Shown here: positions 7,659-32,370 of the stretch, piece by piece
Position numbering within the stretch: position 1 is the stretch's first letter
Layout of the letters: each line of letters starts with the position of its first letter
Assembly (NCBI GenBank): GCA_030018935.1
Contig: JASEGZ010000020.1
Coordinates: forward strand, 1-34,601
Direction: 5' to 3'
DNA from: Syntrophales bacterium
GTDB taxonomy: Bacteria > Desulfobacterota > Syntrophia > Syntrophales > CG2-30-49-12
Length of the DNA: 34,601 nucleotides
Notes under the pieces: generated by a model
The model's input: the letters and a program-made list of their open reading frames with translations, nothing else
What the model was told of the DNA's origin: nothing
Database searches by the model: none
Made by a program: the position numbers and the translations under genes

Positions 7659-8353
7659 CTCGGTCTCTCTTGCTGTTGTATCTGTGTGAGGATGGCATTA
7701 ATCAAAAAGACAAACAACAGAAGGATGACACTGAGAGCGATGGCAATCTCAAAATTTCCCCGGCTTGTCTCCATAACTGTAGCTGTCGTCAGGACCCGGG
7801 AGTATCCCTTGATGTTGCCACCTACCATGATGGAGGCGCCGATTTCAGAGATTACCCCTCCGAACCCGGCCATGACTGCTGCCAGCAGGGGCAGTCTTGC
7901 CTCCTTCATGAGTATCCAGACCATTTGAAAGCGGGTAGCCCCGAGAGCAAGAATCTGTAACCGGAGATTTCCGGGAAGTTGCTGAATAGCCGCCAGGCTG
8001 ATACCGGTTACAATGGGAGTTGCAATGATGGCCTGGGCGATAATCATGGCTGTCGGTGTGTAAAGGATTTCCAGAAATCCCAATGGTCCGCTTCTCCACA
8101 GAAATATGGTAACAAAAAGGCCAACCACCACCGGTGGAAAAGCCATACCGGTATTAAACAGACTGACAACGAACTTTTTCCAGGGAAATTCAGAGAGGGC
8201 AACATAAGTCCCTGCGGATATCCCAATCAGTAAACTGATGATCGTGGCTGTACCGGATATCCGCAGAGAAAGCAGGGTAATCCCCATTACCTCAGGATCA
8301 AAAGTGATGAGGAGATAAAATGCCTTACCGATTCCTTCGAGAAGCAAATCCAT
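7655..8353 (-). CDS. tupB: ABC transporter permease, tungstate (TupB) type
   Basis: A 232-residue integral membrane protein with about five to six hydrophobic helices (for example around 25-50, 60-85, 100-125, 150-175 and 200-225). The binding-protein-dependent transport loop spans the segment beginning ALGATRFQMVW. Length and sequence style match TupB/WtpB-like permeases. It overlaps the ATPase gene by 4 bp. The expected tupA-like periplasmic binding-protein gene is not upstream. In its place is a long palindrome and a damaged crotonase gene, so substrate capture must come from a binding protein encoded elsewhere, or the system is crippled. The ribosome-binding site before the ATG is weak (GGGTAGAGAG). 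Confidence 0.85.
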   Translation of the reverse strand: MDLLLEGIGKAFYLLITFDPEVMGITLLSLRISGTATIISLLIGISAGTYVALSEFPWKKFVVSLFNTGMAFPPVVVGLFVTIFLWRSGPLGFLEILYTPTAMIIAQAIIATPIVTGISLAAIQQLPGNLRLQILALGATRFQMVWILMKEARLPLLAAVMAGFGGVISEIGASIMVGGNIKGYSRVLTTATVMETSRGNFEIAIALSVILLLFVFLINAILTQIQQQERPR

Positions 8354-8371
8354 CTCTCTACCCGGAGTATC

Positions 8372-8580
8372 TCTGCGAGAGCTTTTGAAAATTGTCTTCG
8401 CAAGCGCTCAAAATCTTTTTTCGACCATGCACATCTCGCTTCGCTGCCAGGGCAAAACTCAGGCTTTGCCTTCAAACAGTTGCCCTGGCGGGCGCTTCGC
8501 TTTGATGGCATGGTGCCCGAAAAAATCTTTGATTCGCCCTTCACGAAGACAATTTCCAGTTTTTCAAAGGTCTCTCTGCG
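8372..8580. repeat. Long imperfect inverted repeat (about 210 bp)
   Basis: The left arm from about 8372 to 8463 and the reverse complement of about 8475-8580 align with gaps. Shared blocks are a CTTTTGAAAA/CTTTGAAAA block, ATTGTCTTCG, a TCAAA-A-TTTTTTCG block, ACCATGC, GCTTCGC/GCGAAGC and GCCAGGGCAA. A smaller hairpin (GGCAAA...TTTGCC) sits at the centre near 8451-8470. No credible gene lies within it. An 85-codon open frame across it arises only from the repeat. It starts 18 bp upstream of the permease ATG, so it is either a degenerate mobile element or a structured leader of the transporter mRNA. It resembles no riboswitch class I can identify. Confidence 0.65.
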
Positions 8581-8780
8581 TCAATAAATAACCGTTGACT
8601 TTTCCCAAAACGTTCTTTTATATCTTTACAACTTGATACCGTCAAAGTCAAACTGCAAACTAAAAGGTAGTCAGAATCCCAGGGAGTTACTTTTTGGCGA
8701 CATTGTCACAGGAAAGAATATGCCTCGTTCCAAACCTTATCCGAACGGGCTAAAATTGACTAAGGGAGGTAAAAATAAAA

Positions 8781-9114
8781 ATGGATATCATTTTAATCTG
8801 TCGGGATGCTCTGCCGCCAGTACACTGCCCGACAGGCTTATGAAATGGGTCTGGTAAATGCCGTTGTCCCCAATGCCAAACTCGAGGAGGAGGTAGATAA
8901 ATGGTGTGAGGAGCTATTCGGCCTTGCCCCCTCCTGCCTGCAAATAGTGAAACAGAGTTTTAATGCTGTGGGAAACGAGATAAAATGGACTTCTGAAAAG
9001 ATCTTATCCCTGATTGCCCCGGATTTCTTTGACCGACCGGAGGTAAAGGAGGCGCACGAAGCATTCTTTAACAAGAGGACACCGAATTTCTGGAAGGACG
9101 CCAGGAAGGGTTAG
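8781..9114 (+). pseudogene. Internally deleted crotonase gene (MenB/BadI-like C-terminal fragment)
   Basis: A strong ribosome-binding site, GGGAGGT at 8764-8770, precedes an ATG at 8781, but that frame ends after 20 codons (stop at 8841-8843). The +1 frame, open from about 8797 to the TAG at 9112-9114, encodes the last ~100 residues of a crotonase. It begins MLCRQYTARQAYEMGLVNAV and ends in KRTPNFW, resembling the C-terminus of naphthoyl-CoA synthase (MenB) or ketocyclohexanecarboxyl-CoA hydrolase (BadI). The two crotonase oxyanion-hole regions, about 150 residues, are missing. The simplest reading is that the start and the end of one gene survive and the middle was deleted out of frame. The fragment could not be catalytically active. 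Confidence 0.75.
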
Positions 9115-9140
9115 TTAGCAAAGCTGAATACTTACTCCCA

Positions 9141-9983
9141 TTAGTTCATCATGATCGGCTCTACGCCTGGAGGAAGCGGCAGATCAAATACCTCCGGGTC
9201 CGTTTCTGCCGAAAGCTGGGGATCAGAATACTCAATGGTAATACTTCGTTTATCAGCCCCTCTGGTGGCGACGGTCACCTTTCGGGGAATAATTACATTT
9301 TCCACCCTGACGAAACCTTCAAATTTTACGGAATACAAGATATTCCCCTGATCAGCAAAGGCGTCAACCCTGACCAGATGGTTATCCGCCGGATCTAGCC
9401 ATAGAGACCGGATTTTCTTGTTCTGAGAGGTCACATCTATCCGGTATAGTTTACCTTCTGGAATTCCCTCCAGGGTCTGACCTCTCTCATCAAGAACAGG
9501 ACAGGTACCGGTCAGGATGGAGAGCATCTCCTCTACCGGAAGACTGATGGGGAAAAAAGAGGAGAGATTCTTTGTGGTTGCCTCACCGATGTAAAACTCA
9601 CCTTTCCGGGGCAGAAACACCTTTAAAACATTTCCCTTTACAGAGAGGAAAAAATCGGGGGGACCGATAAGGGGGATAGTCTCAACCCTTAAAAACGACG
9701 GCTTCTGCAACATCACGGCGACCCTTGCAGGATACCTTCCCCGGGTGGTGATGATCTCCATACGGGCAATGGCCCTCAGTGTGCCTTTAAGATGAGCCTT
9801 TGAAGCAGCCTTTTCTAAGGCGTTCTCGGGAGAGGAGAAATAAGCCGCAGAAAGAGGGACTTTTCCGGGGAGACATCCGGAAAAGGCAAAAAGAAAAGAG
9901 ATAATGAGAACAAAAGCAGGAAAAAATTGCAAACCTACAGGGAAGGCGTACCTTCTCAAAGAGAGGTCACCCGGAGCGCTCAT
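9141..9983 (-). CDS. LolA/LolB-fold outer-membrane lipoprotein (DUF4292-like)
   Basis: 280 residues. The N-terminal signal ends in a lipobox FSGC with Cys37, so the protein should be exported and lipidated. The rest is a beta-rich domain with features of the LolA/LolB/DUF4292 group: a region with KVFLPRKGEFYIGEA about 105-120, a SLPVEEMLSIL helix, and late segments of the type expected from a half-barrel lipid-binding fold. Its start codon overlaps the stop of the TPR lipoprotein gene by 4 bp (ATGA at 9980-9983), so the two are co-translated. A role in lipoprotein or lipid handling at the outer membrane is inferred from fold and from the envelope-gene context. The sequence similarity is weak and the exact function is unknown. 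Confidence 0.75.
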   Translation of the reverse strand: MSAPGDLSLRRYAFPVGLQFFPAFVLIISFLFAFSGCLPGKVPLSAAYFSSPENALEKAASKAHLKGTLRAIARMEIITTRGRYPARVAVMLQKPSFLRVETIPLIGPPDFFLSVKGNVLKVFLPRKGEFYIGEATTKNLSSFFPISLPVEEMLSILTGTCPVLDERGQTLEGIPEGKLYRIDVTSQNKKIRSLWLDPADNHLVRVDAFADQGNILYSVKFEGFVRVENVIIPRKVTVATRGADKRSITIEYSDPQLSAETDPEVFDLPLPPGVEPIMMN

Positions 9984-11707
9984 TGGCTATTGCTCTTATT
10001 TTGTTTCTCCATAAGTTCATCTATTTTTTTTTGCAGGACTCGATTTGCCGGATTTAACTTCAAAGCCTGTTTGTATACCTCGAGGGCATCCTTAGTACGA
10101 CCTGCCTTAGCATAGGCATCGCCTAAGTGTTCCGCAATAGCAGCATCGTCAGGCAGGATATCTGATGCCTCCTTCAGGTATTTTATTGCCTGATCCATCT
10201 TGTTTTGCCGGAAATATACCCACCCCAGGCTGTCAATCATATAGCCGTTCCCCGGCTTTAGTTGCAGGGCCTTTCCGATCATCTCCTCCGCTTTATCAAG
10301 ATTTATCCCCCTGTCGGCATAGGTATAACCTATAAAATTAAGGGCCTCCGCATTGTTGGGGTCAATTTTCAGGACAGTTTCCATCTCTTGAATACTCTCT
10401 TTGAAAAGTCCCATCTTTTCGTACAGGGCGCCAAGACTGTAATGAAGATCAGCACTCTGGGGCAGGACGAGAAGACCTTCCTTTAATGCCTCGCAGGCAG
10501 CGGAGAGTTTTTTGTCCTCCTCATAAAGGGATGATAGAAAGAGATACAGTTCGGGCCATTCCTTTTTGTTATTAATGGCTTCTCTAATCACAGCGATAGC
10601 CTCATCGCCCTTACCCTCTTCCTTCAATCTTACTCCCATTTGGATCCGGGCGCTTCCATATAAATTTGAGTCTGCAGGGATCTTTTTAAACTCTTCAAGG
10701 GCACTGTTGTATGCCTTCTTTTCTTCATAAGTTAGGGCCAATAGATACCTCACCCTGTGATCGGCTGGATGATCTTTCAGTAAGGAGGCAAACTCCTCAA
10801 TTGCCTGTTCATACTGCTTCCTCTCCAGGTAAATAAGACCGAGGGTCATCTTGACTTCTCTATTGTTGCCATCAAATTTCAGGATTTCTTGAAACTCCCT
10901 TACCGCTTCATCGTATTTTTGCTCTCTTAAAAGAGTCTCTCCCAATTTCATCCTCACATTGACTCTTGTGGGATACAAGTCGAGAAAATTTTTGTAGGTT
11001 TCTATGGCTAAAGTGTTCTTTTTTTGCCTTTCGTAAAGAACTCCCAGGTCAATTAATGCAGGCTCAAAGGCAGGATCTATAGCCAGGGTCTTTTTGAACC
11101 TCTGCTCAGCTTCATTATAGCGTCTCATACTGGTCAATATCCTGGCAAAATAATAGTTACCCATCAGATGATCAGGGTCAATACGGAGTAGATTCTCGAA
11201 TACCCCGACGGCCTTTTTATACCTTTTGTCTTCCGCATAGATCATCCCCAGGTGAATATGGGACATTAAATTTTTCGGATCCAGCTCAATGACCCTTTCG
11301 TATTCCCTGACGGCATTTTTATAGTCTTTTATATTCAGGTATAGTCTGCCTAACATGAGATGTGTGTCCACGTCATCAGGATTATCAGGGAGAGATTTTT
11401 CACAGAGACTGATGGCCTTCTGTATCTCACCCTTTTTAATATAGAGTGTGGCAAGTTCAACGGCAAGGTAAGAGGACGTAGGGTCAAAAGTTAAGGCTTT
11501 TTCAAACTCTCCGATGGCTTCATCAGGCCTTTCATTAAGAGAAAACATTACACCGAGAGAGTAGTGATAGGTGGCGTTAAATGATGCCCTCCCATTATCC
11601 GGCTGTAGGGCCACCTCCCTACCCTTACCCGGTGGGAAGAGGACGCACCCACTGAGTAACAGTGACAGGATAACCAGCAGACATTTTTTTATCATACCAA
11701 TGCGCAT
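9980..11707 (-). CDS. Large tetratricopeptide-repeat lipoprotein
   Basis: 575 residues. A short signal peptide ends in LLSGC with Cys21 as the lipidation site. From about residue 45 to 565 the protein is a continuous array of TPR units (at least a dozen), recognisable by recurring patterns such as YKNAVREYERVIELDPKN and YEQAIEEFASLLKDHP. Such proteins are protein-interaction scaffolds in the periplasm or at the outer membrane. Here it is coupled to the LolB-like lipoprotein gene by a 4-bp overlap and lies downstream of yibQ and ctpA. The start may be the ATG at 11707 or the one four codons later. Neither has a clear ribosome-binding site. Confidence 0.88.
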   Translation of the reverse strand: MRIGMIKKCLLVILSLLLSGCVLFPPGKGREVALQPDNGRASFNATYHYSLGVMFSLNERPDEAIGEFEKALTFDPTSSYLAVELATLYIKKGEIQKAISLCEKSLPDNPDDVDTHLMLGRLYLNIKDYKNAVREYERVIELDPKNLMSHIHLGMIYAEDKRYKKAVGVFENLLRIDPDHLMGNYYFARILTSMRRYNEAEQRFKKTLAIDPAFEPALIDLGVLYERQKKNTLAIETYKNFLDLYPTRVNVRMKLGETLLREQKYDEAVREFQEILKFDGNNREVKMTLGLIYLERKQYEQAIEEFASLLKDHPADHRVRYLLALTYEEKKAYNSALEEFKKIPADSNLYGSARIQMGVRLKEEGKGDEAIAVIREAINNKKEWPELYLFLSSLYEEDKKLSAACEALKEGLLVLPQSADLHYSLGALYEKMGLFKESIQEMETVLKIDPNNAEALNFIGYTYADRGINLDKAEEMIGKALQLKPGNGYMIDSLGWVYFRQNKMDQAIKYLKEASDILPDDAAIAEHLGDAYAKAGRTKDALEVYKQALKLNPANRVLQKKIDELMEKQNKSNSQ

Positions 11708-11720
11708 AAAGTTTTTTTAT

Positions 11721-12632
11721 TTAATCTTCTCTCGTGGTTTTCTTTCCGGTCATCTCAAGAAGCTCTGACACGGGGACGATGTCAATGCCCTTTGCCTTAA
11801 GGAGGGGCACGGCCTCCTTAAGTGCCCTGACGGTAGAAGGATAAGGGTGCCCGCTTACGATGACGATCTCCATTTTCTGCGGGTTACGTTTATCCCATAG
11901 ATCCATCAGAATCTGAAAGGTCGCTTTATAATCTCTGCCGTTGTCAATAAACACATCTCTTGCAGCAAACCGAAGTCCTATCTCCTTTGCCAGTTCTCTT
12001 CCTTTCGAGTACCGGGTTGTTAAACTGTCCACAAAGAAAAGACCTCTCTCCTTGATCTGCTGCAAAACGACAGACAATTTTGTCCTGTCTTCCATAAATC
12101 GGGAACCCATGTGATTATTAACCCCTACAATATAGGGAACAGCGTCAAGGTCTTCTTCGACCTGCTGCCTGATCTGATCCTCGTTCATCCAGAGGAAAAG
12201 GGCCCCGCTCCCCGGTTTTTCTTCGGGATAAGTTTTAGGTTCCATCGGCAGGTGGAGAAGAATTTCTCTTCCCTCCCGGTAGAGTATCTCGGCGGCATCA
12301 ACAGAATGTGGTAGGTGGGGAAGAATGGCAAAGGTGATGGGAGCATCAATCTCAAGGAGTTCATTCAGTGGGGCAAGATTATAACCGATGTCATCAATAA
12401 TAATGGAGACCTTCTGTTTTTTTAGAAATGGTATCTTTTCCTCTCGTCTTTCTGTATCATACCTTTCCGGTGGCTCCTGATATGGCATTTCTCTCAGAGG
12501 ACCACCCTGTTTTCCTTTTAGAGGTTCCTCCGTCGTTTCCCTCGGGCGCTTGGGTTGCAAGAGATAAACAATCGCAACAACTAAGATAATCGCGATAATG
12601 ACAGCCAAGGCAAAGCCTCTCGTGAATCTCAT
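11721..12632 (-). CDS. Divergent polysaccharide deacetylase family protein (YibQ/DUF610-like)
   Basis: 303 residues. An N-terminal transmembrane anchor at about 8-26 is followed by a charged, proline-rich linker to about residue 75 and then a divergent polysaccharide deacetylase (NodB-like) domain. Visible motifs are VSIIIDDIGYN, HLPMEP and NNHMGS, the metal-site and core motifs of this subfamily. The protein should sit in the inner membrane with its domain in the periplasm. The family often neighbours ctpA-type proteases and murein hydrolase regulators, and ctpA is directly upstream here, so a role in peptidoglycan turnover is likely but not proven. AGGAGG lies unusually close (2-5 bases) to the ATG. 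Confidence 0.85.
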   Translation of the reverse strand: MRFTRGFALAVIIAIILVVAIVYLLQPKRPRETTEEPLKGKQGGPLREMPYQEPPERYDTERREEKIPFLKKQKVSIIIDDIGYNLAPLNELLEIDAPITFAILPHLPHSVDAAEILYREGREILLHLPMEPKTYPEEKPGSGALFLWMNEDQIRQQVEEDLDAVPYIVGVNNHMGSRFMEDRTKLSVVLQQIKERGLFFVDSLTTRYSKGRELAKEIGLRFAARDVFIDNGRDYKATFQILMDLWDKRNPQKMEIVIVSGHPYPSTVRALKEAVPLLKAKGIDIVPVSELLEMTGKKTTRED

Positions 12633-12670: not shown

Positions 12671-13990
12671 TTAACTTTTCACTTCCCCGGTTCCTGAACT
12701 GGTTTTCTTGAATATCTCCCAGCTCTTTATCATATCTACGGCGGCTTTCAGTTGATTATCCTCCATCGTTAAATCTTTAGATTCCTTTTTTGCAGAGTCT
12801 ACTGGGCTGTCTTCTTCTTTTGGCGACCTGATGTGACCAACAAGATCCTGTTCTCTTATGGGCTTGGCTGACGATCCCTTTTCCTCGGGTGTTTTTAAAT
12901 ATTTAACCACGATATCAGGGGTGATTCCTTCGGCCTGGATAGATCGCCCCTTGGGTGTGTAATACTTGGCGGTGGTCAATTTCAATGCCGAGCCGTCCTC
13001 AAGAGGGATAACGGTCTGCACAGACCCCTTTCCAAAAGTTTGGGTACCGAGGATCAATGCCCTTCCGTTATCCTGAAGTGCCCCGGATACGATCTCGGCA
13101 GCGCTGGCAGTTCCTTCGTTAACCAGAATGATGATAGGATATGTTGGCTCATCACCGTCGTCTTTCGCCATAAACCTGCTTTCTACGTTTTTTACCCTCC
13201 CTCTCGCGGACACAATAACCCCTGATTTCAGGAAGACATCGGAAACTTCTACCGCCTGAGTGTATAGACCACCTGGGTTGTATCTCATATCCAGGACCAG
13301 ACCTTTCAAAGGAGAGCCCTCCCTATTGACTTCCTGAATGGCTTTTTTAACTTCCTCCACTGTTCTTTCCTGGAAGGAAGATATTCTGAGATAAGCGATA
13401 TGATCATCAACAATTCTGGACTTGACACTCTTTATCTTGATATCAGCACGGGTGATCATAAAGTCCTTTGGCAAGGGCATATTTTCCCGCAAGATGGTAA
13501 TCGTAACCTTCGTATCTTTTGGTCCCCGTAATTTTTTAACAGCTTCCATAATGGTAATATCTTTGGTAGATACTCCGTCAATCTTGATAATCTGGTCTCC
13601 TGCTTTAATACCGGCGTGAAAAGCAGGGGTATCCTCAATAGGCGATACAACGGTAAGGACATCTTTTAAGATGGTAATTTCAATCCCGATACCGCCGAAG
13701 CCCCCTCTCGTTTCCACCTCGAGTTCCCTGTACATGTCCGCAGTCATGAAGGCACTGTGGGGATCAAGAGATCTCAGCATCCCGTTGATCGCTCCCTGAA
13801 TGAGGGTCTTTGAGTCTATGTCCTCCACATAGTTCTTCTCCACCATGTCGAGGATCTCATTAAATATCTTGAGATTCTTATAGGTGTTCCGGTCCACCGC
13901 GGAGACCTGGCTGTCACCACAGGGGCCAAGAAGGACCAATAAAGTAAAAAGGCATAACAGCGGTAGCGACTTACAGAAAAATCTCTTCAT
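12671..13990 (-). CDS. ctpA: Carboxy-terminal processing protease (S41 family, CtpA/Prc)
   Basis: 439 residues counted from the ATG at 13990, chosen because GGAGG (13997-14001) stands about 6-7 bases upstream and the signal peptide begins right there. An upstream ATG 14 codons earlier has no such site. Order of parts: signal peptide (about 1-31), N-terminal helical region, PDZ domain (about 95-175), then the S41 protease core with catalytic Ser296 in GTASAAE and Lys321 in TFGKGSVQ, and a Lys/Ser/Glu-rich tail after 385. It is a periplasmic serine protease that trims or degrades proteins at their C-termini and often controls peptidoglycan hydrolases. It lies downstream of the tol-pal operon and upstream of yibQ. 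Confidence 0.94.
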   Translation of the reverse strand: MKRFFCKSLPLLCLFTLLVLLGPCGDSQVSAVDRNTYKNLKIFNEILDMVEKNYVEDIDSKTLIQGAINGMLRSLDPHSAFMTADMYRELEVETRGGFGGIGIEITILKDVLTVVSPIEDTPAFHAGIKAGDQIIKIDGVSTKDITIMEAVKKLRGPKDTKVTITILRENMPLPKDFMITRADIKIKSVKSRIVDDHIAYLRISSFQERTVEEVKKAIQEVNREGSPLKGLVLDMRYNPGGLYTQAVEVSDVFLKSGVIVSARGRVKNVESRFMAKDDGDEPTYPIIILVNEGTASAAEIVSGALQDNGRALILGTQTFGKGSVQTVIPLEDGSALKLTTAKYYTPKGRSIQAEGITPDIVVKYLKTPEEKGSSAKPIREQDLVGHIRSPKEEDSPVDSAKKESKDLTMEDNQLKAAVDMIKSWEIFKKTSSGTGEVKS

Positions 13991-15131: not shown

Positions 15132-15758
15132 TCATGGCGCTGCTTTCTTGGGAATGACGACAAAGTGGGCTCTCCTGTTCTTTGCCCAGGCCTCTTCGTT
15201 ATGACCTGGATCCAGGGGACGTTCCTCACCATAACTGATTGTTTCTATCCTCGTTTCGTCAATACCGAGGTCGGTAAGGTATTTCGCTGCTGCTGCTGCC
15301 CGCCTTTCACCGAGAGCCAGGTTATATTCAGTAGTTCCTCTTTCATCACAGTGTCCCTCAATGACGAGGCTGCAATTTTCATGCTTCAGCAGCCAGTCTG
15401 TATGTTGCTCAAGGATCTTCCTTACTTCAGGTTTAAGGTTGAATTTGTCGAAATCGAAATGGATATCCTCAAGTTTAAATTCCTCTTTTGCCGTAGGAAC
15501 CAGTTCTTTCGCCGCCTCCTCTTTCGCCGCTTGTTCTTTCAGTGCTTGTTCTTTCAAGGTCTGTTCTTTCAGTGCCCGTTCTCTTGCAGCCTGTTCTTTT
15601 GCAGCTTGATCTTCTAAAGGAACCTGTTGCTCCACTGCCGGCGGTTCTTCTCCGGTTATCACGGCTTTCTGCACCGGCTTTTTTGCACACCCGGTTACCA
15701 ACATGGCCGAAACACACACGGTCAGAATGAGTATTACCCATAAGTTTCTTTTTCTCAT
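15132..15758 (-). CDS. pal: Peptidoglycan-associated lipoprotein Pal
   Basis: 208 residues from the ATG at 15758, which has GGAGGAAGT just upstream. A longer frame to 15818 adds 20 residues without a better site. The signal peptide ends in LVTGC (Cys24 lipidated). Residues 52-86 are seven pentapeptides of the form A-[AL]-K-E-Q, a charged helical spacer not found in E. coli Pal. From about 93 onward is the OmpA-like peptidoglycan-binding domain with IEGHCDERGTTEYNLALG (123-140) and the RR..A helix. Pal anchors the outer membrane to peptidoglycan and is moved by TolB/TolA during constriction. Confidence 0.95.
   Translation of the reverse strand: MRKRNLWVILILTVCVSAMLVTGCAKKPVQKAVITGEEPPAVEQQVPLEDQAAKEQAARERALKEQTLKEQALKEQAAKEEAAKELVPTAKEEFKLEDIHFDFDKFNLKPEVRKILEQHTDWLLKHENCSLVIEGHCDERGTTEYNLALGERRAAAAAKYLTDLGIDETRIETISYGEERPLDPGHNEEAWAKNRRAHFVVIPKKAAP
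15501..15605 (-). repeat. In-frame 15-bp tandem repeat within pal (7 units)
   Basis: The units encode AAKEQ, AARER, ALKEQ, TLKEQ, ALKEQ, AAKEE and AAKEL. The DNA units are similar but not identical, with repeated TTCTTT-containing 15-mers on the plus strand. Gain or loss of a unit would keep the frame and alter the length of the spacer between the lipid anchor and the peptidoglycan-binding domain. Confidence 0.8.
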
Positions 15759-21922: not shown

Positions 21923-22164
21923 AATCCTGCAATTTTTGTTAAAAGTGAGAACCTCAAAGGCTAATTTTCTATCATAATTTCTTACAGCATAAAAGAAAAT
22001 TCACAACAGTACCCTCAAGGTTGACAACAAAAAACCATGATTTCCCTTAAAATCAAGGGCTTAAAGAAAGAGTTTGCTTTGTAAAGAGATATTTTGTATT
22101 TAAGTCAAGAAAAAATCGAGCGTGGAGGATCTTTACTTTTGCCGTGAGAAGGGAGATTGGTCGC

Positions 22165-23313
22165 ATGGATACATTATCCAGAGAGGAACTCGAAATACTG
22201 ATAAACAAACGTAATGAGCGGTGCATCTCAATTTTTATGCCCACCTATCGGACAGGTGTGGAAATCCAACAAAATCAGATCAGACTCAGAAACCTGCTTC
22301 GGGAAGCAGAGGAAAAGTTACTTGTCAGTGGCCTTCGGACCACGGAGGTGAAATCATTACTGGAGCCTATCCAGGGGCTCTTGGGTAATATCCTTTTCTG
22401 GCGACGTCAGAGCGACGGTCTTGCCATCTTTCTATCCTCCGACATGTTTCGTTTTTACTGCCTTCCCCTGGATTTTGGGGAATTGGTCATTATCACCGAC
22501 CGTTTTCACATCAAACCGCTTCTGCCAGCTCTACGGGGAGACGAGCGTTTCTACATTCTAGCCCTCAGCCAGAATGAGGTCAGGCTCCTCGAAGGCACCA
22601 GACATAGCGTCAGAGAGATTGATCTTGAAACCATCCCTAAAAGTCTTGCCAAGGCCCTCCAGTACGATGTGCCGGGGAAAGAGGTTCGCTTTCATCCAGC
22701 AATATCAGGTAGTGGCGGACGTTCGGTGATGGTCTCCGGGCATGGTGCCAGTATGGAGGATGTGAAGGATAATATTCTGAAATACTTTCGCCAGATTGAT
22801 AGAGGTCTACGCGACCTCCTCAGGGACGAACAGGCACCTCTCGTGTTGGCAGGGGTAAATTATCTCTTTCCGATTTATAGAGAGGCAAATACCTACCCCC
22901 GGCTTATGGAGGAAGGCACTGGAGGAAATCCAAAGGGAATGGGAGCGGAACAATTGCATACGCAGGCCTGGAGTATCGTGGAGCCCTGCTTTCAAAAGGC
23001 CGAGGCCGAGGCCATTGCTCAGTACAGGCAATCTTTGGGGACCGGTCTAACCTCCAACGATATTATAGAGATCGTTCAGGCTGCCTGTCACGGGAGGATC
23101 GGTTTGCTGTTCGTCGCCATAGGCCACAGGCAGTGGGGGGTAGTTGACCCTAACACCTATGAAGTGCATCTGCACGAGAAGATGGAACCAGGCGATGAAG
23201 ATCTCTTCGACTTTGCTGCCATCAAGACCTTCTTGAACGGTGCCACTGTCTTTGCCCTTCCCCCAGAGAGAATACCTGATGGTGCATCAGTAGCGGCTGT
23301 ATTCCGTTATTGA
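22165..23313 (+). CDS. baeRF family protein (bacterial eRF1-like, type 3)
   Basis: 382 residues from the ATG at 22165, which has GGGAG about 9 bases upstream. A GTG at 22144 in frame would add seven residues. The protein resembles the bacterial relatives of archaeal/eukaryotic peptide release factor domains. It begins MDTLSREELEILINKRNERC, then has an ISIFMPTYRTG strand, a middle domain with ERFYILALSQNEVRLLEG and a C-terminal domain near IGLLFVAIGHRQWGVVDP. Family members have been proposed to act on stalled ribosomes or to be peptidyl-tRNA hydrolase-like, but activity is not established for this type. No GGQ-type motif is evident. It is transcribed alone on the plus strand, convergent with the radical SAM gene. 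Confidence 0.8.
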   Translation: MDTLSREELEILINKRNERCISIFMPTYRTGVEIQQNQIRLRNLLREAEEKLLVSGLRTTEVKSLLEPIQGLLGNILFWRRQSDGLAIFLSSDMFRFYCLPLDFGELVIITDRFHIKPLLPALRGDERFYILALSQNEVRLLEGTRHSVREIDLETIPKSLAKALQYDVPGKEVRFHPAISGSGGRSVMVSGHGASMEDVKDNILKYFRQIDRGLRDLLRDEQAPLVLAGVNYLFPIYREANTYPRLMEEGTGGNPKGMGAEQLHTQAWSIVEPCFQKAEAEAIAQYRQSLGTGLTSNDIIEIVQAACHGRIGLLFVAIGHRQWGVVDPNTYEVHLHEKMEPGDEDLFDFAAIKTFLNGATVFALPPERIPDGASVAAVFRY

Positions 23314-23350: not shown

Positions 23351-24562
23351 TCATGGACCGATGTTTCCTGCCGTTGTCTGAACGATGACTGTTTTTAACC
23401 CCATATCCTGGAGAACATCACGGAGGGCCATCATTTCCATATCTTTCGGCTTTACGATATTGCTTCTGAATGTACTCCTGTAATTGAGGACGGTAACCTG
23501 AAGAGAAGGGGTGATTTTAAGAAGTTTCTGTCCCATACGGCTTATCTCGGACAGAGAAGTAAAACTCCGGTTGTAAGGAATGCCAACACCGACAAAAACC
23601 TTCTCCGGGTAGTTATGAATCAGGTATCTCACCGCTCCCCATGCGGTTTCTTTATAGTTTTCCGCCAAGTTCCTGTCAGACAGACCCGTTATCTTCATAA
23701 AGGTATCTGTTTTTAGGGCCTTGAGGTCTATTCCGATATCAGTCATGCCGGCATCTACCAATTCATCGAGGTAATCGTGAGTGAGCAATGAACCGTTGGT
23801 ATCAACATGGAAGCGGGCGTCCGGGTCGGGATTAAAACTTTTCATTTCCCTTAAAAACAGGGTTAACCAGGTCCTGTTGAGGGTGGACTCGCCGCCGGAA
23901 ACCGTCATCCTGTTTAACTCTAAACCCTCTCTTATCATGGTTAATCTTCGGGCTGCTTCCTGGGGCGTTAAGGCTTCACCCTGTCCCCTGTAAGTGATCG
24001 GCCAGTTCTGACAGTGGGGGCATCTGAGATTACATCCCGCGGTAAAACAGGCCGCCTCAAGATAAAAGCCATCGTTACCCTGGGATTGCCGTGGTGTACC
24101 CACCCCTCCCATGGAGTGACCCTGGAAATTCACCACGATCCTCCTCGGGACGTATTCCTCCGGCAACTCGGTCCTGATCCTTATCCCCTTTCTCACCATC
24201 GTCCGGCAGGCGAGTTTTACCATACCATCAATCTCAACGGCGCAACTCCCGCACCCTCCGACTTCGCAGGGGGCAAACAGACCCGATTCCCGAGAGGATA
24301 TGGCAAGTGGGTAACCTGCTTCTATCAGGGCGTCTTTTACACTTGTCTGTTCAGGTACCGAGGCCAATTTGCCGTTTATTTCAATAGTTACTTCCCTCTC
24401 CCGCGGCGCCTCCACAAGTTCCAGGGCCTGGTGGGGACAGGCCAGGACACAGGCTCTACAACCGATGCAGATCAACTCATCTGCTCCGGGACAGTTAACT
24501 ATTTCACTACAGGCACCACAGAGGTGGCATTTCTCTGGATGATGAATGGCAACGTAAGGCAT
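23351..24562 (-). CDS. Radical SAM protein fused to 2x[4Fe-4S] and [2Fe-2S] ferredoxin domains
   Basis: 403 residues in three parts. Residues 5-50 are a bacterial ferredoxin with two clusters: Cys12, 15, 18 and 24, and Cys32, 35, 38 and 42. Residues 57-130 are a [2Fe-2S] domain with Cys99, 104, 107 and 119 (spacing CX4CX2CX11C, as in NuoG-like domains). Residues about 165-400 are a radical SAM domain with Cys177, 181 and 184 in CNLRCPHC and a VSGGEST segment for SAM binding, related to PflA-type activating enzymes. It could activate a glycyl-radical or other enzyme, with electrons supplied by its own ferredoxin modules. The target is unknown. It is the last gene after the activase/dehydratase pair on the same strand, with AAGGA 6 bases before the ATG. 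Confidence 0.85.
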   Translation of the reverse strand: MPYVAIHHPEKCHLCGACSEIVNCPGADELICIGCRACVLACPHQALELVEAPREREVTIEINGKLASVPEQTSVKDALIEAGYPLAISSRESGLFAPCEVGGCGSCAVEIDGMVKLACRTMVRKGIRIRTELPEEYVPRRIVVNFQGHSMGGVGTPRQSQGNDGFYLEAACFTAGCNLRCPHCQNWPITYRGQGEALTPQEAARRLTMIREGLELNRMTVSGGESTLNRTWLTLFLREMKSFNPDPDARFHVDTNGSLLTHDYLDELVDAGMTDIGIDLKALKTDTFMKITGLSDRNLAENYKETAWGAVRYLIHNYPEKVFVGVGIPYNRSFTSLSEISRMGQKLLKITPSLQVTVLNYRSTFRSNIVKPKDMEMMALRDVLQDMGLKTVIVQTTAGNIGP

Positions 24563-24628: not shown

Positions 24629-25981
24629 TTACTTCTGACGGATACGCCTCGCCTGCACGGCTATGGTATCGAGAAGTTTCTTCTGATTGGCTGATATCCA
24701 AGGGCCCTCACAATCAACAGAAACAAAGGGAATCTGGCTGTTGTTCGCCAGGCGTCTGAGAATGGCCTGGGAATTCATGACCGGCTGGCAGTTAAATGAA
24801 CCCACATTTATCAGTCCGTCAAAAACCCCTGACCTGAGAGAACAGATAAACCTCCCAATAGCTATGGGAGTTTCACAGAATCCGTTATGAGAAACATATT
24901 TGCTCCCTTCTCTAACAAGGTCGAGAAAAGGTACGTGCTTGTCATAGATGAGACCGGACTTTTTAGCTACCTCTCGATAGTGTTTCATAAGAGAGACGAT
25001 ACCCGCAATGTGCAACCTGGCCCGTAACGCCATTAATGCCTCTTTTAAGTTATTTTTAGGGTTGAAAATAGACAGGAGAAGCGAGGCACAATTAAATTGT
25101 CCTTCCGGTTTAGCCAGGCCTCTCTTGAAACCGTATCTGACCACATACTCAGATTCGATCCAGCAGATGCCCTCTGTGAGATCGGAAACCTTGGGGATGA
25201 TCCCCCGCTCCGCAAAAAACTCCGTTATCGGCCCGTGGATAAACTTCACGTTTAAACCGCCAAAGAGGAGTACCTTTGGCGTTTCCTCGACACTGGACTT
25301 AATGGGTATACGGGCGGTGACCTCCGCCCATTTTTTAAAGGTGGAGGCGAGGGCCCCGACCCCCCTCGGGGCACTTTCAATAACGCGGTTGACCTCCAGA
25401 TCAAACGTCTTGAGTGCAAGGTCTCTGTCTTTGGCAAGACATCTTAAAGTCCCCCGGGCTTCATCAAGCAAGTCTCCTACCACGGCAGAGATGGCAAGTT
25501 CGGCGGCAAACCTATCCCCCTGACGGAGATATTTGTTTCTCAAGCCGGGCCAGACGAGAAAGACAACATTTTTCAGATGAAGCCTTCTGGCGAATGTATC
25601 CCATACAATTGGCCATGCCCCGTTCTGGCATGGGCCGTCCTGATCCAGGTTGTAATAGAGGGAAATTTCATTTTCTCCACGGTTATCTAAAATATCCTTA
25701 TAGGTCGTGCCTGCCATGGCGGTGGTAGGGAGACATTCCCTCCCAGAACACAATCTCCTCGCATACTGGAGAATTCCGGCATTCGTCTGTCCCCCGCGCC
25801 TGAAATTCCAGCCCCGCTTCTCGAAAAAACCCTCCAGCAAACGTGTCGTATAAAGACCGGTAGGGAGTAACCAGACATGCACCACTTTCGGATCATCAAA
25901 TTCCACCCTGTTGCCGTCACTGGCGATGATGTAGCTATAATCTTCAGAGAGTCGTGCCTGTTTTACTTCACCGTTGTTCAT
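24629..25981 (-). CDS. 2-Hydroxyacyl-CoA dehydratase/benzoyl-CoA reductase D-component-like protein (HgdB/BcrC type)
   Basis: 450 residues. It resembles the HgdB-like C-terminal section of the long activase-related proteins. Conserved cysteine contexts include GRECLP (Cys83), DGPCQNG (Cys118), FNCQP and VDCEGPW near the C-terminus, some of which may bind a [4Fe-4S] cluster. In the characterised family these subunits carry out radical dehydration or ring reduction of acyl-CoA thioesters after single-electron transfer from an activase. It is directly downstream (50 bp) of the tandem activase gene. The ATG has no visible ribosome-binding site. I infer that the two form one functional unit. The substrate is unknown, and a dedicated benzoyl-CoA reductase is not shown. 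Confidence 0.8.
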   Translation of the reverse strand: MNNGEVKQARLSEDYSYIIASDGNRVEFDDPKVVHVWLLPTGLYTTRLLEGFFEKRGWNFRRGGQTNAGILQYARRLCSGRECLPTTAMAGTTYKDILDNRGENEISLYYNLDQDGPCQNGAWPIVWDTFARRLHLKNVVFLVWPGLRNKYLRQGDRFAAELAISAVVGDLLDEARGTLRCLAKDRDLALKTFDLEVNRVIESAPRGVGALASTFKKWAEVTARIPIKSSVEETPKVLLFGGLNVKFIHGPITEFFAERGIIPKVSDLTEGICWIESEYVVRYGFKRGLAKPEGQFNCASLLLSIFNPKNNLKEALMALRARLHIAGIVSLMKHYREVAKKSGLIYDKHVPFLDLVREGSKYVSHNGFCETPIAIGRFICSLRSGVFDGLINVGSFNCQPVMNSQAILRRLANNSQIPFVSVDCEGPWISANQKKLLDTIAVQARRIRQK

Positions 25982-26020
25982 GATGACATGTCTCGTAACT
26001 GCTCAAGAGTCAGAATTTTG

Positions 26021-26048
26021 CGACTTACGACTTACGACTTATGACTTA
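26021..26048. repeat. Heptamer repeat tract (GACTTAC type) overlapping a gene end
   Basis: Four units run from 26022: GACTTAC, GACTTAC, GACTTAT, GACTTA. The stop codon of the 979-residue protein (26032-26034) and its last residues (ISHKS) are encoded inside the tract. The tract therefore entered or grew at the exact junction of the two dehydratase-type genes. Confidence 0.75.
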
Positions 26049-28971
26049 TTTTTTTTGGGCGACGGCGCTCCTCGACAATGTCAAGAAAGGCGCCCACCCG
26101 TGTCTCAAAACCGGCATGGGCCGTGTGGGAATCTATTTCAAGATAACAGAACGTATCGCCAGCCAGTTCCTCGCGGATCAGATGATAGATGCTCGCATCT
26201 GGTCCGCAGGAAAAGCATGAAACGAAGGAGAGATAGAGATTGGGAAATTTCTTGACATAGGCGATAGCGTTTGTAATCTGCTGTGTATGGCGCCAGACGT
26301 TTCTCGGATGGTAAGCGTTGCCTAAGGGGGGGAGCATATCGGCGGGAACGACATGGTAACCCCGGCTGGTAATCTTGCGCGGGAGGGCAAGATTGACCTC
26401 TGTTGAACAGGTGGTGTACGGTCTCCCCGCAATGATAACCGTGGGTTCCTTAATCAGTCCTTCCAGTTCCTTTTTGCCCAGCTCGAGGTGCCTCTTCTTG
26501 AATCTTTCATAGGAGGCGATGGCTTTTTCTGCTGCCCTTCTTGCCGCTTTTTTCCCAATCCCCAGTATTCCGGCCATGACGATAATCTCTTTTAGGGTGG
26601 TGGCCATAAGGACTCCGGTGAGACCGATATGGGGAGAGAGTATTTTATCGGAGATGCCGCCAAAGGCCCCTTTGATGATGTCCGGAATGACGGTCGTAGA
26701 AGGACAGGTGTAACCGTAGAGATGACCACAGGAGGCTTCCATCTCAATGACGCGGGGTAAAAGGATAAAATCCACGTTGCGTTGCAACAGATCATAAACC
26801 GCCCCGTGGACGATTTCACATGGATAGCAGATGGGGGAAACAGTTTTGGCATTGCCGATTTTTGAGGGTTCCGACAGGACGCAATTAAAACCGAGTTCAT
26901 TTATGAGCCTTGTGTAAAAAGGGAAGAGTTCATAGGTGGTAAGGGCCACAGGCAAACCAATTGTTCCCCGGGGGTCAGCTATCTCCTTCGGCCCGAACTC
27001 ACCAAACATCAAAGCATTTCGCACTGCCACCAGATCGCGGCCTTCCTCCGTTTCTTTACCCCTCTGGCGTTGCAGTTCATATCTGGAACAGAGCCCCCCA
27101 AAGGGATAAATCCTGTCCCGGAGGGCAATCTTTTTAATCTCACATCTATTCTCACAACCTGGGCACCTGAATTGCCCCTTCACTTCCATCGAACCGGAGA
27201 CAAGGTCCTCAAGTTTATAGGGTTTTTCCGTAGTGTCCCCGTTATTTAGCCAAGCCCTCACCATGAGGGCAACCCCTATACACCCCATGAATTCCGGGTG
27301 GGGGGGAACCACTATCTTCTGGTGGGTGCGGGCAGCCATGGCCAGGGCTGCTGATCTGTTTAGGGCCACGCCTCCCTGGAAGAGGACGGTACCTCCTACG
27401 TGACGGGCACCGACGATCCGCGAGATATAGTTATCGGCAATGGAATAGACCAATCCGGCAACTACATCTTCACGTCCGGCGCCTTGCTGGAGGGCATTTC
27501 TTAAGTCAGTACTGATGAAGGCGGCGCATCGTTCCCCGAATGCCACGGCATGATCACTCCTGTAAGCTATACCACTGATCTCCTCCATGGCGATACCCAT
27601 ATCCCGTAAAGCAGATTCTTCAAGAAAACTCCCCGTTCCTGCCGAGCATCCTTCATTCATCGCATAATCAACGGGAACCCCTTTCAGGAATGAGATAAAC
27701 TTAGAATCCTGGCCCCCTATTTCAAAGACCGTATCAACCCCCGGCACCTCATGAGTCGCTGCCCTTGCATGGGCAAGTATCTCATTGACGCTCAGGCAGT
27801 TGTCGAGGTAGACAGATACTATCTCCCTTCCCGATCCCGTTGTCCCTGCCTGAATTACTTTTATTCGTTTATCACCCATCTGTCTTATGAGTTCCTCGAG
27901 GCATTTCTCTGTCGCCCGGACAGGATTGCCCTGTGTTCTCAAATAGCAACTGGCGCCGATGGAGACGTCTAAAATGTTAAGTAAAACTGCCTTCGTGGTG
28001 GTTGATCCGGCATCTACACTCAGGATATAGGATCCCCCCTCGATTACTTTTCCCTCTCTATCAGGACAAACTCTGTAGTCAAGCAACAGTTCCGCCTCTC
28101 TCAATGGTCTCAGGGTCTCAAATACAGGTTTTGTTCCCTTGAGCCAATTCCCACCGACAGGTGCGACAGCGCCTCCTAACAGTTCACAGGCATAGAGATA
28201 GGCTCCAAAGGCCTCCAGATAGGGGCTTTCCTCGAGGACTATTACCCTGGAGTTAGGGAGAAGTTCCTGCAATGTTTTCAGGAACGGTTCGTTTAAGGCA
28301 AGGCCGCCCGCGACGACGATTAAATCAGCGGGCCAGTTTGTAAGCTCAATCATCTTACATATCTTTTTTGCCAGGTCATGGATGAGGGATCTTGCTATAT
28401 CATCAGGGGTGCACTCACCTTTGTTGAGCTTGTGGGTAACGTCGGTTTTGCAGTGAACCGAACATCGCGTGGCCAGCGGAACCACCTTGCCGAACCTGAC
28501 TGCCGCAAGTCCGTCCGGGAGAGAGAAACCCATCCTCTGGAACTGCTGGATGAGAAACTCACCGGTGCCTGCGGCACATTTGGATGAGGAGATGATGTTT
28601 TTAATCTCACCGTCCCTCATAGGGTACACGGTAAACGTTTCTCCACCGAGGGAAAGGAGAATATCCGGCTTTATCTGATGGGATGAAAGGGCGGCCTCGA
28701 GGCATTCCGTCTCGGCACGGTAGGGAAGGGCAAAAAGGGCCTCTGCTGCCGGTCCTGTAACCACAATACGACAGTTATCCTCTTCGGGGACAGATTTGAA
28801 ATCTGTCCCCACATCAATAATTTCCCGTACCTTTCCCTGCGGGTTTCCCTCATGCCGCAGGATTTTTACCACCGGGTCTCCCTCTCTCTTCCCGACCCAT
28901 TTTACCGAGACGGCGCCGATCTCTAACCCTCCGCAGGAAGGAGATGACCACCGGTCATTCTGATGAGGCAC
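26032..28971 (-). CDS. Tandem acyl-CoA dehydratase activase (two BcrA/BcrD ASKHA domains plus DUF2229)
   Basis: 979 residues. Activase domain 1 spans about 14-290 and domain 2 about 314-585. Domain 2 has an intact phosphate loop, DAGSTTTK (320-327), EIGGQDSK (427-434) and the two cluster cysteines Cys442 (GCSAGTG) and Cys482 (GERCAAF). Domain 1 keeps the cysteine pair Cys132 (KCAAGTG) and Cys170 (TRCSVHC) but has GLEIGAVSVKW instead of the phosphate loop. A cysteine cluster CPGC..C (603-610) and Cys628 follow, then a DUF2229/HgdB-like region with CYPCE, GYTCPS, GRPYTTCS and CFSCGPDAS. In HgdC two identical subunits share one [4Fe-4S] cluster, and the duplication would build that inside one chain. 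ATP-driven electron donation to the next gene's product is inferred. The start is GTG, 7 bp after lspA. Confidence 0.86.
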   Translation of the reverse strand: MPHQNDRWSSPSCGGLEIGAVSVKWVGKREGDPVVKILRHEGNPQGKVREIIDVGTDFKSVPEEDNCRIVVTGPAAEALFALPYRAETECLEAALSSHQIKPDILLSLGGETFTVYPMRDGEIKNIISSSKCAAGTGEFLIQQFQRMGFSLPDGLAAVRFGKVVPLATRCSVHCKTDVTHKLNKGECTPDDIARSLIHDLAKKICKMIELTNWPADLIVVAGGLALNEPFLKTLQELLPNSRVIVLEESPYLEAFGAYLYACELLGGAVAPVGGNWLKGTKPVFETLRPLREAELLLDYRVCPDREGKVIEGGSYILSVDAGSTTTKAVLLNILDVSIGASCYLRTQGNPVRATEKCLEELIRQMGDKRIKVIQAGTTGSGREIVSVYLDNCLSVNEILAHARAATHEVPGVDTVFEIGGQDSKFISFLKGVPVDYAMNEGCSAGTGSFLEESALRDMGIAMEEISGIAYRSDHAVAFGERCAAFISTDLRNALQQGAGREDVVAGLVYSIADNYISRIVGARHVGGTVLFQGGVALNRSAALAMAARTHQKIVVPPHPEFMGCIGVALMVRAWLNNGDTTEKPYKLEDLVSGSMEVKGQFRCPGCENRCEIKKIALRDRIYPFGGLCSRYELQRQRGKETEEGRDLVAVRNALMFGEFGPKEIADPRGTIGLPVALTTYELFPFYTRLINELGFNCVLSEPSKIGNAKTVSPICYPCEIVHGAVYDLLQRNVDFILLPRVIEMEASCGHLYGYTCPSTTVIPDIIKGAFGGISDKILSPHIGLTGVLMATTLKEIIVMAGILGIGKKAARRAAEKAIASYERFKKRHLELGKKELEGLIKEPTVIIAGRPYTTCSTEVNLALPRKITSRGYHVVPADMLPPLGNAYHPRNVWRHTQQITNAIAYVKKFPNLYLSFVSCFSCGPDASIYHLIREELAGDTFCYLEIDSHTAHAGFETRVGAFLDIVEERRRPKKISHKS

Positions 28972-32343: not shown

Positions 32344-32370
32344 GACTTACGACTTACGACTGATGACTGG
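32344..32370. repeat. Heptamer repeat tract (GACTTAC type) upstream of ileS
   Basis: Units GACTTAC, GACTTAC, GACTGAT and GACTGG follow each other directly. Just to the left, at about 32332-32342, is a degenerate GCAAGCGTTCAG that resembles the CTGA-type family end in reverse. Both repeat types therefore meet here, 29 bp before the ileS start. Confidence 0.65.

Follow-up and report, generated by a model that had tools for sequence, protein, structure and literature searches.

Large proteins that fuse activase with dehydratase-like parts are common across the bacterial order that we searched, and the locus studied here raises the question of why the parts of such a protein should be encoded by two genes that separate exactly at a heptamer repeat. 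The locus lies in a 34,601-nt stretch of DNA from a Syntrophales bacterium (contig JASEGZ010000020.1; hereafter the window). On its minus strand, a gene for a 979-residue protein (the N gene, 26032-28971, with a GTG start) is separated by 50 nt from a gene for a 450-residue protein (the C gene, 24629-25981, with an ATG start), and the summed length of the two products is 1,429 residues. We regard it as probable that the pair is a long-standing two-subunit form of the activase/activase/DUF2229/HgdB-like family, which would act as an ATP-driven low-potential reductase.

The N protein carries two BadF/BcrA-type (ASKHA) activase domains followed by DUF2229, with Pfam matches to BcrAD_BadFG in two stretches (E 6e-53) and to DUF2229 (E 6e-42). 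The first ASKHA domain extends approximately from residue 15 to residue 275 (28147-28929, minus strand) and has conserved Cys132 (CAAGTG) and Cys170/174 (RCSVHCK). The second, at about residues 315-570 (27262-28029, minus strand; PF01869, TIGR00241), contains Cys442 (CSAGTG) and Cys482 (ERCAAF) and matched the sequences of PDB entries 9gai_D (MbdQ), 4eht and 1hux, and also 7yyl_E (DCCP-R). A stretch of four cysteines, C603-C606-C610-C628 (27088-27165, minus strand), sits between activase and DUF2229 and constitutes a putative metal or Fe-S site. The DUF2229 core (residues 670-880; 26332-26964, minus strand; PF09989), a domain that a single paper of the literature searched names for the large fused proteins, belongs to a DCCP/BcrB-like half that reaches the C-terminus and includes C715, C756, C919 and C922. 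When 13 proteins, split and fused, were aligned, invariant cysteines were seen throughout this architecture: Cys132 and Cys170 in the first ASKHA domain, Cys442 and Cys482 in the second, all of Cys603/606/610/628, and Cys715 and Cys756 in the DUF2229 half. The ASKHA cysteine pair, kept in both domains in all 13 proteins, provides the predicted ligands for a shared [4Fe-4S] cluster.

The 450-residue protein is more difficult to place. It had no Pfam or NCBIfam match, PF06050 was undetected, and searches by sequence alone in Pfam, NCBIfam and the PDB, profiles included, found no dehydratase domain; its similarity to known dehydratases at sequence level is very weak. Its assignment as an HgdB-like half derives from fold comparison. 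The AF2 model of this C half (mean pLDDT 88.4, pTM 0.90) was matched by Foldseek, with probabilities of 0.99-1.00, to BzdN/BzdO (8s02, E 1e-5), DCCP (7yyl, 6eno), MbdN/O (9gai, 9g87) and HadBC (3o3m). The model of the DUF2229 half was weaker (pLDDT 72.9), and its best match was DCCP (7yyl/6eno, E ~2e-7). The TM-scores were only 0.35-0.46, which places the matches at the level of fold class and not of close structure, either because domain orientations differ or because the models are imprecise. At that level, both catalytic halves are modeled with an HgdB-type fold.

Conserved cysteines provide a further point of comparison for the C half. Every row of the 450-residue family has Cys83 and Cys118, and every full-length row also has Cys398. 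Their spacings of 35 and 280 resemble those of Cys95, Cys128 and Cys380 (33 and 252), the [4Fe-4S] ligands of BzdO (PMC11971306), a likeness of spacing as opposed to one of superposed structures. In an hhalign comparison with a Lokiarchaeota relative that has a gene of its own, Cys83, Cys118 and Cys398 were set opposite the cysteines of CFP, GPC and FTCMP, at a probability of only 42%. With a PF06050 protein that adjoins one fused relative (L115), hhalign gave no match.

Class I benzoyl-CoA reductases have two ASKHA subunits, which use ATP to drive electrons into a further two subunits of HgdB-like type. The window pair shares with the enzymes BzdNOPQ and MbdONPQ this set of two ASKHA and two HgdB-like units, the fold of the C half (BzdN/O, MbdN/O), the BzdO-like spacing of three cysteines and the sequence match of the activase to MbdQ. 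It differs from them in distributing the units over two chains (3+1) instead of four, in the low TM-scores given above and in standing outside a benzoyl-CoA context. DCCP and its reductase DCCP-R, which are encoded by separate genes (PMC7306483), are likewise similar in the fold of the DUF2229 half and in the activase, but here activase and DUF2229 half lie on one chain, and an [8Fe-9S] cluster is at most a candidate feature of the window pair. The 2-hydroxyacyl-CoA dehydratases (HgdAB/HadBC, with activases HgdC/HadI) resemble the pair in the fold match to HadBC and in the activase matches 4eht and 1hux, but differ from it in that the activase is here fused with one dehydratase-like half and in that PF06050 goes undetected in the window protein.

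The break between N and C falls in the interdomain linker that joins the two dehydratase-like halves. For the way in which the pair assembles, its clusters, the path of electrons and its substrate we infer the following scheme. The two products most likely come together in the manner of BzdNOPQ. Within the 979-residue chain, the two ASKHA domains would form an internal pseudo-dimer, to whose single [4Fe-4S] cluster each domain would contribute cysteines. ATP binding and hydrolysis would then push very-low-potential electrons from a ferredoxin-type donor into the Fe-S clusters of the DUF2229 half and of the separate 450-residue half. These two halves would make up a heterodimer like HgdAB or BzdNO, acting by reduction or dehydration on a substrate that may be an acyl-CoA, so that a '3+1' arrangement would carry out the work of the four-chain benzoyl-CoA reductase (BzdNOPQ). 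The working form would most likely be a 1:1 complex, or a dimer of it. The natural split marks a domain boundary and, if the halves assemble, as they plausibly do, the pair offers a tractable two-protein system for establishing which half holds which cluster.

A preliminary description of the locus had noted that 979 plus 450 residues equal the length and domain order of single fused proteins, and this equivalence was borne out. The window genome itself encodes a fused paralog of 1,439 residues (L076:2582-6901), with 39% identity to the pair over the N part and 26% (~25%) over part of the C part. Furthermore, the 155 genomes of the order contain many open frames of ~1,420-1,550 residues with a homolog of the 450-residue protein at 23-30% identity; contig ends may account for the length of the shorter frames in this order-wide list. 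The fused proteins of ~1,440 residues share with the pair the domain order, the total length, the cysteine motifs of both ASKHA domains, the four-cysteine stretch and most cysteines of the DUF2229 half. They differ in being one chain instead of two, in the modest identities just given and in forming a separate clade. Two ASKHA domains followed by DUF2229 are present in the window pair, and so is the HgdB-like C-terminal half, which matches the C-terminal part of the fused proteins and has a gene of its own; the single polypeptide is replaced by two ORFs, here as in eight relatives. The pair is a variant, and not a typical member, of this family of large proteins.

The relatives that share the split were found by scanning an alignment of the C half against 84,980 species genomes. 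The scan yielded nine loci (L077-L085), belonging to a genus-mate, Syntrophaceae CG2_30_49_12 (L077, genome G001), to CSMAG_2901 (L078), CSMAG_3031 (L079), a Lokiarchaeota MAG (L080), Smithella (L081, genome G044), a Syntrophaceae MAG (L082, genome G038), a Desulfuromonadaceae MAG (L083), CSMAG_3044 (L084) and an Acidobacteria MAG (L085). The N and C parts are encoded by different genes at L077-L084, and L085 is fused. The same boundary separates the two genes in nine genomes that span several bacterial lineages and one Lokiarchaeon: the window genome, the genus-mate (L077 together with L062) and the seven others. Identity to these split relatives is 57-87% for the N gene; for the C part it is 40-59% in the relatives that lack the heptamer array. 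Fused members of the split-type subfamily are L085 and three more that were added by a search of the phylum, L115 (genome G229), L116 (G475) and L117 (G155).

A maximum-likelihood tree was built from 29 N+C or fused proteins: the nine split pairs, the three fused L115-L117, L085 and 16 ordinary fused proteins. The nine split rows and L115-L117 formed one clade with a support of 100/99, the fused Acidobacteria protein fell outside this clade, and the 16 ordinary fused proteins, the window genome's own paralog among them, formed a separate and distant clade. With fused L115-L117 nested inside the split clade, the state must have changed at least twice on the best tree; a tree constrained to place all split rows in one clade was not rejected (p-AU 0.384). 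A bolder proposal, which we hold to be rather doubtful, is that the split clade represents a distinct two-subunit ATP-driven reductase with its own substrate, spread horizontally among Thermodesulfobacteriota, Myxococcota-assigned MAGs and Lokiarchaeota, in which the 450-residue subunit would be an exchangeable catalytic half. If true, nature would have supplied a two-component system whose activase and catalytic partner are separately testable.

The arrangement of the two genes bears on whether their products still belong together. N and C genes overlap by 8 nt in two relatives (L081, L082) and are separated by 2 nt (L079), 17 nt (L080), 25 nt (L084) or 362 nt (L078) in others, while the junction of L083 measures 977 nt and holds a gene for an IclR-type regulator. 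In the genus-mate the two genes lie on different contigs: the N gene runs off a contig end after residue 920, and 5' of the C gene there is ~1.2 kb of other sequence with pieces of an IS110-like transposase, an ORF resembling the C-terminal part of RecG and a degenerate heptamer array. Close linkage is therefore not always kept. The transposase-like fragments, judged by eye to be of IS110 type, have frame breaks and occupy L073:1-430, 5' of the C gene and at the contig end. The different contigs of the genus-mate, the intervening regulator gene of L083 and several further stand-alone activases in the window genome would all fit a pair that is no longer one enzyme, the 979-residue protein serving as activase for several partners and the 450-residue protein working with others. 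We nevertheless regard this reading as unlikely, given that N and C co-occur in nine of nine genomes, adjacent and in the same order in eight of them, and that fused forms lie inside the same clade.

Selection was assessed by comparing the window genome with its genus-mate. The C gene had a dN/dS of 0.24-0.32 and the N gene one of 0.28-0.35; the values were 0.21-0.27 in the neighboring radical SAM gene and 0.15-0.19 in the fused paralog. Both halves are maintained under purifying selection. The C gene furthermore has its own start region, with a methionine common to the relatives, and its frame is closed 7 codons 5' of the ATG (open frame of 457 codons). Since start and end are conserved and selection is purifying, the split is real. 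A pair in decay, in which the split would be a disabling mutation in a dispensable gene while the fused paralog does the work, would be consistent with the stronger constraint on that paralog and with the genus-mate, where the pair is disrupted and fragments of what looks like an IS110-type element lie in front of it. However, both halves are intact with their cysteines kept, and the paralog sits in a different, distant clade. The dN/dS values led us to reject a pseudogene as the main reading, and we consider it very improbable.

The coincidence of the break with a repeat requires a closer look at the repeat family. The array of four CGACTTA copies (26021-26048, listed without strand) overlaps the 3' end of the N gene: its minus strand encodes the final residues ISHKS and the TAA stop codon, which the preliminary description had likewise ascribed to the repeat. 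The pattern GACTTACGACTTACGACTTA has 387 matches genome-wide with up to two mismatches, and its reversed control has none. With up to one mismatch, the GACTTAC/TAAGTC heptamer occurs in two of 154 genomes of the order, 193 times in the window genome and 25 times in the genus-mate, and was absent from the other 152. It is a dispersed repeat that is confined to one genus within the order. On the strand reading TAAGTC, the 7-nt unit places TAA in all frames within 21 nt, so that an ORF entering an array of at least three copies must stop there. When 18 arrays near the best matches were sampled (the first loci listed, hence a non-random set), about half overlapped the 3' end of an ORF on the TAAGTC strand, by a few to ~25 nt. 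The TAACTGA heptamers of Beggiatoaceae described by MacGregor are similar: they are dispersed and intergenic, stop all frames in the forward direction and overlap ORF ends (PMC4679880). The repeats of the window genome differ in their unit, GACTTAC, and in often running into gene 3' ends, as seen in our small sample. Any array that adjoins a gene in this orientation should provide its stop codon, which is therefore a poor guide to the cause of the split; as the unit closes all frames within 21 nt and arrays often meet gene 3' ends in this genome, the coincidence is weak evidence.

The preliminary description had also suggested that the split was driven by the repeat, an expansion in a fused gene having introduced the stop and broken the frame in this lineage, perhaps reversibly through phase variation. 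The array does lie exactly at the break and supplies the TAA, and the degenerate array of the genus-mate occupies the same position. Comparison of fused and split forms among relatives nonetheless refuted the repeat as origin of the split, which is seen where the repeat is absent. None of the eight split relatives has an intact heptamer array at the junction, the genus-mate's being degenerate and the L083 junction holding one isolated hexamer match, and the genomes of two members of the same order with the split pair (G038, G044) lack the heptamer pattern entirely. The conserved start of the C gene, its frame closed upstream, and the frequency of arrays at ORF 3' ends in the window genome, as in Beggiatoaceae, also speak against a repeat-driven break, to which we give hardly any credence. 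An error of assembly or sequencing in a single frame can practically be dismissed: although the window genome is a 90-contig draft and repeats are error-prone, eight other assemblies show the same split with different junctions, and the sequence 5' of the genus-mate's C gene is unrelated. Judged from the sequences compared, and whether it arose once or repeatedly, the split long predates the heptamer, which is limited to one genus. Under the preferred reading of a long-standing two-subunit enzyme, the array, as a genus-specific dispersed repeat, would have landed later in the spacer and overwritten the end of the N gene. We take the repeat for a bystander, responsible for trimming the N gene end, and a stop codon within a dispersed repeat is no proof that the repeat broke the gene.

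The genes surrounding the pair vary among genomes. In the window its neighbors are lspA, ileS and a ferredoxin-like/radical SAM gene (23351-24562, minus strand; 403 residues) that lies 66 nt downstream of the C gene. The latter had been proposed to belong with the pair to one redox system, a claim that was not supported for the system in general: only the window genome and its genus-mate have this gene behind the pair, and close homologs occur in only 4 of 155 genomes of the order. It is therefore not a general part of the system, and we rejected it as an obligate partner. CoA-transferase and acyl-CoA-dehydrogenase-like genes neighbor the pair at L078, and further stand-alone activase and DUF2229 genes do so at L080. 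At the latter locus (Lokiarchaeota), stand-alone genes of DUF2229 type, FAD-oxidase-like/DUF2229, activase and dehydratase-like kinds adjoin the split pair (1520-2596, 7672-10185, 10182-11213, 11207-12532 and 12708-13298), a dense cluster of parts of ATP-driven Fe-S reductases.

Other features of the window were recorded in passing. A gene of the baeRF family (22144-23313), similar by NCBIfam, below cut-off, to the AOC03_06830-like ribosome hibernation factor, adjoins the operon on the opposite strand. A second GACTTAC array (32344-32369) lies just 5' of the likely start of ileS, where the called ORF is extended too far at its N-terminus. The 7-bp unit ATCGCTG, repeated in tandem at 918-951 (4.9 copies), is unrelated in sequence to the GACTTAC family. 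Finally, 15-bp tandem repeats at 15503-15613 are probably coding, since their lengths are multiples of three.
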